This document shows positions 7,998 to 9,444 of a stretch of 64,000 nt of DNA, in pieces. Where the stretch lies: positions 3,720,001-3,784,000 of the forward strand of contig AP026073.1 of the NCBI GenBank assembly GCA_024349765.1, given 5' to 3'. A model generated the notes under the pieces. It was not told the origin of the DNA. It worked only from the letters and a program-made list of their open reading frames with translations, and did no database searches. Each line of letters starts with the position of its first letter. Positions within the stretch are counted from its first letter, which is position 1. The stretch comes from Streptomyces nigrescens (lineage in GTDB: Bacteria; Actinomycetota; Actinomycetes; Streptomycetales; Streptomycetaceae). The position numbers and the translations under genes were made by a program.

Positions 7998-8053
7998 CTT
8001 CCGCACCTCCGCATTTCCGCACTCCCGCACCTCCGCACTTCCGCACCGCCGCA
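7998..8053. repeat. seven tandem copies of an 8-bp unit (CYTCCGCA)
   Basis: Units at 7998, 8006, 8014, 8022, 8030, 8038 and 8046 read CTTCCGCA, CCTCCGCA, TTTCCGCA, CTCCCGCA, CCTCCGCA, CTTCCGCA, CCGCCGCA. The array starts one base after the dehydratase stop codon and is non-coding on the forward strand. Slippage is the likely origin; function unknown. Confidence 0.85.
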
Positions 8054-8196
8054 GGCCCGTGGGAGTACTTCCGTGGTCCCACGGCCCCGGGGGAGCAGCC
8101 GGCACCCGAGCAGCCCGATTCGGCCGCATCAAGATTTTGCCCGCACAGCTCGGTGCGGCCGGGTAGAAAGCAAGTTCCCGACGTGAAGGAGGAGAC

Positions 8197-8310
8197 GTGC
8201 ACTTGCGGATCACGGAGGACGGGAAGCACGCGGGCCAGCCCTCGGACAAGCCGTGGACGCCGCCGCCCACGCCGCCGTCCCCGGACGGCGACCGCCCCAA
8301 GGTGGCATAG
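8197..8310 (+). CDS. 37-residue peptide, candidate RiPP precursor (imiditide type)
   Basis: A GTG at 8197 is preceded by an excellent Shine-Dalgarno (AAGGAGGAG, 8186-8194) and the frame ends at TAG 8308-8310, three bases before the methyltransferase ATG. The peptide begins VHLRITEDGKHAG, has a Pro/Thr-rich middle (PWTPPPTPPS) and ends PDGDRPKVA. It contains two Asp-Gly pairs, the dipeptide most prone to form aspartimide. No cysteines, so a lanthipeptide is excluded. Known imiditide clusters pair a short precursor with a PCMT homologue that methylates an Asp side chain to drive aspartimide formation; the coupling here fits. A mere leader peptide is the alternative. Confidence 0.6.
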   Translation: MHLRITEDGKHAGQPSDKPWTPPPTPPSPDGDRPKVA

Positions 8311-8313
8311 CCG

Positions 8314-9444
8314 ATGGCCGACTCCCAACGGGGGCACGCCGCGCTTGTCCAACAGCTGGACGAGCGCGGCCTGTTGAGCCCCGCATGGCGAGAGGTGTGG
8401 GAGCGGACGCCTCGGCACGAGTTCATTCCCGAGCGCATCTGGCGGCAATTGCCGGAGCGATGCGAGTTGATCACCTCAGAGCAGGACCGATGGGCTCTCA
8501 TCCACAGCGACGAGCCTGTGGTGACACAGCTGGATGACGGACGGGAGGGTGGCCCAGGCATCGCCACGTCGTCGAACAGCATGCCGTCCATGGTTGCCCG
8601 GATGCTCGGTCTGCTGAACGTGCATGACGGCGCCAAGGTGCTGGAGATCGGCACAGCCACGGGGCAGGTGGCCGACCTGCTCTGCGGCCGGTGCGGCGAT
8701 GGGAACGTCACCAGTGTGGAGATCGATCGGGCTCTCTCGGTCGCGGCCGCAGAGAACCTGAACCGCCGGGGCCACGCCCCCACCTTGGTGGTCGGTGATG
8801 GGGAGCACGGCCATCCCGCCGGCGCCCCGTACGACCGGATCATCGCCACCTGCGCACTGCGGCACGTCCCGTATGAACTGGTCGAGCAGCTACTCCCTGG
8901 TGGGCTTCTGGTGGCGCCCAGGGTTGGCGACTTCTGGTGCGGTGCCTTGTTCTGCCTCACGGTGGACGAGGACGGCACCGCGTCCGGACCGTTCGCGGGT
9001 ACGGCAACCTACATGCCGATGCGCGCACACCGCGGCGCCGCCGGCGCCACCCCGGACACCTCCTCGCCCAGGTCCCGGTCCGTGGCCGTCCTGCCCCAGG
9101 AGACGATCAACCCCGGATTCGCGTTGTACGCGGGCGCCCGACTCCCAGGAGTCACCCTCGTCGAAGGGCGGGAAGACGGGAACCTGCGCGTGTGGGTGAC
9201 CGACGGTCGAGGATCGGGAGCCATCGCGGACGCTGACGGTACGGTCACCGAGTTCGGGGACCGCGGCTTGTGGGCTGACGTTGAGGCGGCATGGAGCGAG
9301 TGGGACAGGCATGACCGTCCATCGGCCGGTGACATGGGGCTGACGGTCACGAAGTCCGGTGAGAGTGTCTGGCTGCGCAGGCCCGCCCAAGTGGTGGTGT
9401 CCGCCAAGCCCCCGCACTCGCCGTCGCAGAGCGGCAGCCTCTGA
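8314..9444 (+). CDS. PCMT-like SAM-dependent O-methyltransferase with C-terminal extension
   Basis: The 376-residue protein has an N-terminal helical region (TPRHEFIPERIW), a Ser-rich loop, then the PCMT class I methyltransferase core: VLEIGTATGQVADLL (SAM motif I, about residue 110), VTSVEID (motif Post I) and YDRIIATCALRHVPYELVEQ (motif II). L-isoaspartyl repair enzymes are about 210-230 residues; the extra 150 C-terminal residues match maturase-type homologues found with ATP-grasp (TIGR04188-like), FxLD or imiditide peptides. No ATP-grasp, LanB/C or YcaO gene is nearby. Translationally coupled to the 37-residue peptide, its presumed substrate. Confidence 0.82.
   Translation: MADSQRGHAALVQQLDERGLLSPAWREVWERTPRHEFIPERIWRQLPERCELITSEQDRWALIHSDEPVVTQLDDGREGGPGIATSSNSMPSMVARMLGLLNVHDGAKVLEIGTATGQVADLLCGRCGDGNVTSVEIDRALSVAAAENLNRRGHAPTLVVGDGEHGHPAGAPYDRIIATCALRHVPYELVEQLLPGGLLVAPRVGDFWCGALFCLTVDEDGTASGPFAGTATYMPMRAHRGAAGATPDTSSPRSRSVAVLPQETINPGFALYAGARLPGVTLVEGREDGNLRVWVTDGRGSGAIADADGTVTEFGDRGLWADVEAAWSEWDRHDRPSAGDMGLTVTKSGESVWLRRPAQVVVSAKPPHSPSQSGSL

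Follow-up and report, generated by a model that had tools for sequence, protein, structure and literature searches.

Two closely spaced genes on the plus strand of the window (the whole stretch of Streptomyces nigrescens DNA analyzed here, 64,000 nucleotides long) are best explained as a type I pamtide, or imiditide, cassette. One encodes a short precursor peptide and the other a peptide/protein L-aspartyl O-methyltransferase (PAMT), which would methylate an aspartate of the linear peptide, most likely Asp30, and so lead through an aspartimide to isoaspartate or aspartate. We put the probability of this reading at about 0.86. The reaction, the target residue, and the action on a linear peptide are what we infer by analogy with SpaA/SpaM and NmaA/NmaM, the characterized precursor–enzyme pairs on which the proposed chemistry is based (PMC10787088, PMC13001092); species of +14 and −18 Da were obtained with the SpaA/SpaM pair (PMC10787088).

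Type I pamtides, of which 1414 have been reported, most often from Streptomyces and Actinomadura (PMC13001092), have published precursors of about 45 amino acids that are rich in Gly, Pro, and Asp, carry a conserved Asp near Pro or Gly, and belong to two-gene clusters (PMC10787088). The first-pass annotation of the window had foreseen a new imiditide-like peptide. The kind was well chosen, the conserved pair fitting the type I pamtides, and the novelty is limited: the pair is at most an addition to a known class, and the 1414 reported members may include its clade.

The Gene Pair and Its Surroundings

The pair comprises the following features:

8186..8194, plus strand: ribosome-binding site AAGGAGGAG of the peptide gene, as read in the sequence; a similar site precedes the GTG in L040, L051, and L052
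8197..8310, plus strand: precursor peptide gene, 37 amino acids, MHLRITEDGKHAGQPSDKPWTPPPTPPSPDGDRPKVA; GTG start, TAG stop at 8308-8310; homologues lie before 64 of 68 clade enzymes
8221..8229, plus strand: codons of G9-K10-H11 (GKH motif), invariant in the 12-row alignment A1 and common to other type I and graspetide precursors
8278..8289, plus strand: codons of S28-P29-D30-G31; P29 and D30 are invariant and G31 nearly so in A1; Asp30 is the predicted methylation/aspartimide site
8314..9444, plus strand: PAMT of 376 amino acids, with a PCMT core (Pfam match to residues 87-202) and a C-terminal domain

The TAG of the peptide gene is followed by CCG and then by the ATG of the enzyme, a gap of 3 bp. 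Counted from the sequence, the 37-residue product has 9 Pro, 4 Asp, and 3 Gly, with two Asp-Gly pairs and no Cys. The 37-residue frame with its ribosome site, the 3-bp junction, the two Asp-Gly pairs, and the lack of Cys had all been described in the first-pass annotation, and each was found in its place. The three nearest peptide-bearing relatives (L040, whose enzyme frame is itself short at 287 amino acids, L051, and L052) keep the ribosome site and the GTG, with 3 or 4 nt from the peptide stop to the start of the enzyme.

The 37-codon frame is a real gene, under purifying selection in frame. Its pN/pS is 0.21 among 24 distinct homologues of a longer subtype, a set without the window, L013, L036, L038, and L040 (which have other spacing or a broken left end), and 0.38 among 21 distinct sequences of the shorter subtype, the window peptide being one of the 21; three of these rows are out of register at the left end. 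The other two plus frames give 1.5-2.7 in the longer subtype and 1.5-2.0 in the shorter. One minus frame has values of 0.35 and 0.51, respectively, which we take for the usual shadow of the coding frame. A chance frame is ruled out by these ratios, by the conservation of the peptide before the clade enzymes, and by the recurrence of the junction in the nearest relatives.

The upstream neighbor of the pair encodes, on the same strand, a PLP-dependent threonine/serine dehydratase. Downstream lies a convergent gene for an XRE regulator that carries the MLTR ligand-binding domain (XRE-MLTR_LBD), divergent from an alpha/beta hydrolase gene. The families recognized among the window frames scanned (the first ~15 kb) are PALP, SpoIIE, glyoxalase (VOC), MFS, XRE, hydrolases, and DM13; no ATP-grasp, lanthipeptide, YcaO, radical-SAM, or lasso enzyme was found among these frames. 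The stretch from the dehydratase gene to the peptide gene contains an imperfect tandem repeat at 8000-8053 (8-base unit TCCGCACC, 6.8 copies), after which comes an inverted repeat, seen by eye, of CCGTGGGA and TCCCACGG at 8057-8064 and 8077-8084.

Conservation of the Pair

The comparison covered 176 loci with an oriented methyltransferase, corresponding to 150 distinct proteins; 68 distinct sequences, close kin included, fall by score in the clade of the window enzyme. Directly upstream of 64 of these 68 lies a homologue of the peptide (..GKHxGxPSDKPWTPP..PSPDG.. or close), and in the 64 pairs the two genes either overlap by 4 nt (38/64) or are at most 10 nt apart. Conservation of the peptide frame in relatives had been proposed as a check when the pair was first noted, and the frame is clearly conserved. 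The flanks examined for the 68 clade enzymes, with an upstream part of median length 5 kb that was shorter than 1.2 kb in four, yielded no ATP-grasp match; graspetide ligases start about 1 kb upstream. The earlier remark that ATP-grasp and Lan enzymes are absent here holds among the window frames scanned, and for ATP-grasp in the clade flanks as well.

A profile built from 12 hand-chosen peptides (alignment A1) was searched against 295 genomes of the genus and gave 39 matches in 34 genomes. Thirty-six of the 39 stand directly before a PAMT (28 by comparison with the enzyme positions, 8 in a separate analysis). The remaining three are an orphan peptide remnant, MGKHNGPPADKPWTPPPTPASPDGGHP..., with no PAMT match in the 5 kb examined (L211; genome G167, contig C322, ~10.6 kb), and two weak, near-threshold matches without an enzyme.

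The four clade enzymes without a peptide are L011 and L050, which are one locus, L063, and L077. The first of these loci, the nearest relative found among the genome contigs searched (71% identity), lacks the peptide and has an enzyme frame without a normal end, and L063 and L077 retain frame-shifted peptide remnants. The cassette decays in some lineages, as these loci, the short enzyme of L040, and the orphan remnant attest. These cases weigh against our reading of the pair, as does the absence of a protease or exporter from the recurring clade neighbors (judged by eye and by Pfam).

Some genomes carry clade cassettes two or three times, at distant places (L143-L145 in G210 and L146-L148 in G347); further multi-copy sets are L149-L150 (G066) and L014/L021/L031. 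Some of the copies share blocks about 2.5-5 kb upstream, and the regulator gene between differs. Loci of the S. anulatus group such as L020 (2382-3129) encode, ahead of the peptide, two Cys-containing proteins of ~132 and 75 amino acids (CEACW...CRACAEGGC); the gene for the 75-residue protein overlaps the peptide gene by 4 bases, and a Pfam search with the 132-residue protein of one member gave no match. Such Cys proteins were not seen in the window. A tRNA gene is present in 7 of 35 loci scanned, five of which have the same tRNA-Ser beside a deaminase gene taken by eye for tadA, and none was found in the window. Mobility via tRNA genes was set aside, since 7/35 is too few and too regional to argue for tRNA-linked integration.

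The Methyltransferase

A methyltransferase of 376 residues with a PCMT core had been recognized in the first reading of the sequence, and this description is upheld; the C-terminal extension, given then as 150 residues, comes to about 170 by the border of the Pfam match (residues 87-202). The enzyme scores best against TIGR04188, the family of graspetide methyltransferases, which it matches over positions 1-362 of 363 with 279 bits, below the cut-off of 380. The match to TIGR04364 (FxLD system methyltransferases), 100 bits, likewise stays below the cut-off of 320. With more than 300 residues, a C-terminal extension of more than 100, and a match along nearly all of TIGR04188, the enzyme has the build of a RiPP-linked PAMT. 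The nearest solved structures by sequence are protein-isoaspartate methyltransferases, and the sequence-profile match to one of them, 1DL5 (Thermotoga PIMT), is confined to the enzyme core and its edge (profile positions 67-239).

The window enzyme contains the motif LEIGTATG, presumably the SAM motif. Its WXXXGXP motif is inexact (W330, D334, P336); among the 25 rows of the clade, Tyr takes the place of the W in 20, the G is kept in 22, and the P in all 25. A DEDG loop at residues 218-221 recalls the acidic DEDGD loop reported for NmaM; because similar DG loops also occur in graspetide enzymes, we draw no argument from this likeness.

Proposed Mechanism and Target Residue

We propose that the precursor and the PAMT are made from the closely spaced gene pair, the spacing suggesting a single transcript, and that the PAMT would bind the unmodified, linear 37-residue peptide. 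It would then transfer a methyl group from SAM to the side chain of one Asp, of which Asp30 in PPSPDG is the likeliest. Attack by the Gly31 backbone amide would expel methanol and form an aspartimide (−18 Da) that could open in water to isoAsp or Asp.

Asp30 is the likely site because its Pro-Asp pair is kept throughout, in contrast to the first DG pair, which varies at its Asp. In A1, Asp30 and P29 are invariant in all 12 hand-chosen aligned precursors, and G31 nearly so. The 64 clade peptides retain Pro-Asp, mostly after Ser and in some after Pro, Thr, or Asn, and many relatives have Ala, Gly, or Ser where the first DG pair has its Asp.

The imiditide reading of the first-pass annotation is supported at the level of sequence comparison, since the pair fits the type I pamtides, the peptide frame is conserved, and the flanks contain no ATP-grasp match. 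Linking aspartimidylated RiPPs to a biological function has been called the bigger challenge (PMC13001092). The clade is a compact, conserved test pair with dozens of natural precursor variants; it offers two Asp-Gly pairs as candidate sites, with conservation favoring one of them, and its sister loci offer a neighboring regulator open to assay. Beyond this use, it extends the known class.

Regulators near Sister Cassettes

XRE-type regulators of several unrelated groups are encoded, on either strand, 0.5-3 kb upstream of many sister cassettes (L012-L043, L143-L161); for group N12, at first counted among them, the single member examined has no Pfam match. When any ORF matching a local HTH profile is counted, an XRE regulator lies within 3 kb upstream in 29 of 50 clade loci and within the same distance downstream in 8 of 47, counts that include close kin. 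The contrast persists after thinning at 90% enzyme identity (22/37 upstream versus 7/36 downstream) and at 80% (11/19 versus 3/19, p 0.017). Of 50 clade loci, 25 have a match to Pfam HTH_31 in the nearest upstream ORF of at least 180 amino acids, and in two more this ORF is a GntR gene; the nearest downstream ORF of that size matches the commonest such model there (HTH_3) in 3 of 47. In other pamtide clades the nearest upstream ORF of at least 180 amino acids is XRE in 12 of 28 loci (28/31 had such an ORF), and in graspetide loci it is XRE in 6 of 20, one of the 20 (L203) having no ATP-grasp gene in place. DUF5753 matches number 10 to 29 per genome in 13 genomes, a background that served solely to gauge the frequency of such regulators.

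Group 13 graspetides are reported to occur with DUF397/DUF5753 XRE pairs (PMC13097080, PMC8939145), and XRE-DUF397 pairs are described as pleiotropic regulators in S. coelicolor (PMC10364602). Among the entries listed in searches of the open-access literature, none describes XRE genes next to type I pamtides, and the word "regulator" is absent from the main text of PMC10787088.

One explanation that draws on these neighbors casts the peptide, whether or not it is modified, as a regulatory partner inside the cell (e.g., of an XRE-type regulator) and not as a secreted natural product, with the PAMT switching its state. Such a role is compatible with the chemistry proposed above and differs from our reading in what the peptide is for. 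The upstream excess of XRE genes, which thinning at 80% leaves in place, points this way, as do the upstream XRE gene of L040, a near relative of the window, the recurrence of the cassette within some genomes, and the recurring clade neighbors, among which no protease or exporter was seen (by eye and by Pfam). The window itself speaks against it: together with L156-L159, two of which have a GntR gene instead, it is among the 21 of 50 loci without an upstream XRE, and its XRE-MLTR_LBD gene is downstream, convergent, and beside the divergent hydrolase gene, its own locus adding nothing to the XRE case. Graspetide loci, moreover, show the same trend more weakly (6/20), and regulators beside RiPP clusters often merely control transcription. 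We consider a regulatory partner unlikely.

A broader form of the same thought, which we judge distinctly unlikely, is that type I pamtides might be intracellular switch peptides and not secreted products. In many Streptomyces cassettes, XRE regulator (of several unrelated groups), peptide, and PAMT would then form a repeated module in which the Asp, aspartimide, or isoAsp state of the peptide tunes the regulator, and the KH pair would be a docking site for the enzyme, inherited from ancestors shared with graspetide precursors. If this were true, the window pair would be a member that lost, or never had, an adjacent regulator.

The junctions described above, with a 4-nt overlap or a gap of at most 10 nt in 64 pairs, would also suit a translated leader, that is, a small frame that couples or regulates translation of the methyltransferase while the enzyme repairs or modifies other proteins. 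A pure coupling leader, however, does not need the selection on amino acids seen here or the invariant GKH, PW, and SPD of A1, and peptide and enzyme go together in 36 of the 39 profile matches; we hold this explanation to be very improbable.

Enzyme Phylogeny and Precursor Families

The preferred reading, a type I pamtide cassette, can also be set against the relationships of the enzymes. Thinning at 80% identity reduced 128 enzymes to 85, and in the tree built from these, with a midpoint root for drawing only, the window enzyme falls in a starred set of 25 rows, none of which has an ATP-grasp neighbor. A wider split, with support of 90 and not starred, divides the 53 rows of the window's side, 51 of them without ATP-grasp, from 32 rows of which 26 have it. 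L130 and L180 are pamtide-side enzymes with an ATP-grasp neighbor; neither of these two placements is starred. Other precursor families also occur on the pamtide side, among them NKHKGDPAPIKPWTPPPPPPPDG, GNKHGGGGSDEGGNTNDG, KHRSPIGDDGHQPNRPVPPPPPP, and GGHSGRPDPAESDGHKPDKP.

GKH, PW, and SPD are invariant in the 12 rows of A1. KH occurs in 13 of 15 precursor families, which were hand-chosen (14 pamtide-like and one graspetide) and may share ancestry; shuffles gave a mean of 1.8, and none of 20,000 was as high. Graspetide precursors have a GKHG block between leader and core, where we take the border of the two to lie, and some also have an SPDG block. The comparison of pamtide with graspetide precursor profiles is weak (probability 4.8%, p 0.008), so common descent of the two kinds of precursor is not claimed as shown.

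The genome that contains the window has three TIGR04187 ATP-grasp matches, two of them over the cut-off, at 3.34, 4.71, and 6.76 Mb; the window itself lies at 3.72-3.78 Mb. A graspetide cluster with a TIGR04188 enzyme of 482 bits is found at ~6.761-6.763 Mb (L001/L205, contig C1). There the match to the precursor family stops at position 43 of 72 and the ATP-grasp match begins at position 49 of 312, and the end of the precursor and the start of the ligase look interrupted. The same genome has a second type-I-like pair (L003 1303-2661 / L182, contig C2, ~593.6 kb), with a peptide ending in AKHRSPIGDDGHQPHRPVPPPPPPPPAPDQK directly before a PAMT that scores 258 bits against TIGR04188; this peptide is kept in L044, L045, and L046.

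Least credible is a split graspetide cluster, in which the peptide would become a PAMT substrate only after cross-linking by an ATP-grasp enzyme encoded elsewhere. In its favor, the PAMT is closest to graspetide enzymes, with TIGR04188 as its best family, its own genome has the three TIGR04187 matches, none of them in the window, and graspetide precursors share the GKHG block and some of them the SPDG block. Against it, the conserved peptide core has few Thr or Ser and no Asp-rich tail to cross-link (A1, by eye), the flanks examined for the 68 clade enzymes are free of ATP-grasp matches, the enzyme clade stands apart from the graspetide side of the tree, and the precursor profiles compare weakly (4.8%).

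Comparison with Known Systems

The FxLD system methyltransferases (TIGR04364) share the PCMT core with the window enzyme, but membership was rejected on the score (100 bits against a cut-off of 320), and no lanthipeptide-type enzyme occurs among the neighbors scanned. Type II pamtides, or cysimiditides, resemble the pair in being two-gene clusters with a PAMT; they differ in their CxxCxGxG (zinc-ribbon) motif, which the window precursor lacks, and this class was set aside for a precursor with 0 Cys.

The likeness to Group 13 graspetides with a PAMT (TIGR04186, TIGR04187, TIGR04188) goes further, the enzyme belonging to the same family over its length and the GKHG block, with the SPDG block of some graspetide precursors, recurring in the peptide. 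Unlike those systems, the pair has no ATP-grasp neighbor that we could find, its TIGR04188 score is under the cut-off (279 versus 380), and its precursor has neither the PWG...VEMG leader nor a Thr-/Asp-rich core. Graspetide membership was rejected on the TIGR04188 score, on the absence of an ATP-grasp gene beside the PAMT, and on the side of the tree.

From the type I pamtides, exemplified by SpaA-SpaM of Streptomyces sparsogenes and NmaA-NmaM of Nonomuraea maritima, the pair departs in some details: the window precursor, likened to theirs by published description, has 37 residues against about 45 and 3 Gly in 37 against 17.3% Gly in the published set, and the WXXXGXP motif, unlike that of RiPP-linked PAMTs, is inexact. 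What it shares with them is the layout as a whole: an actinobacterial two-gene cluster that pairs a short, Pro- and Asp-rich precursor, free of Cys and with a conserved Asp, with a RiPP-type PAMT that has a C-terminal domain and is the sole RiPP enzyme seen nearby.
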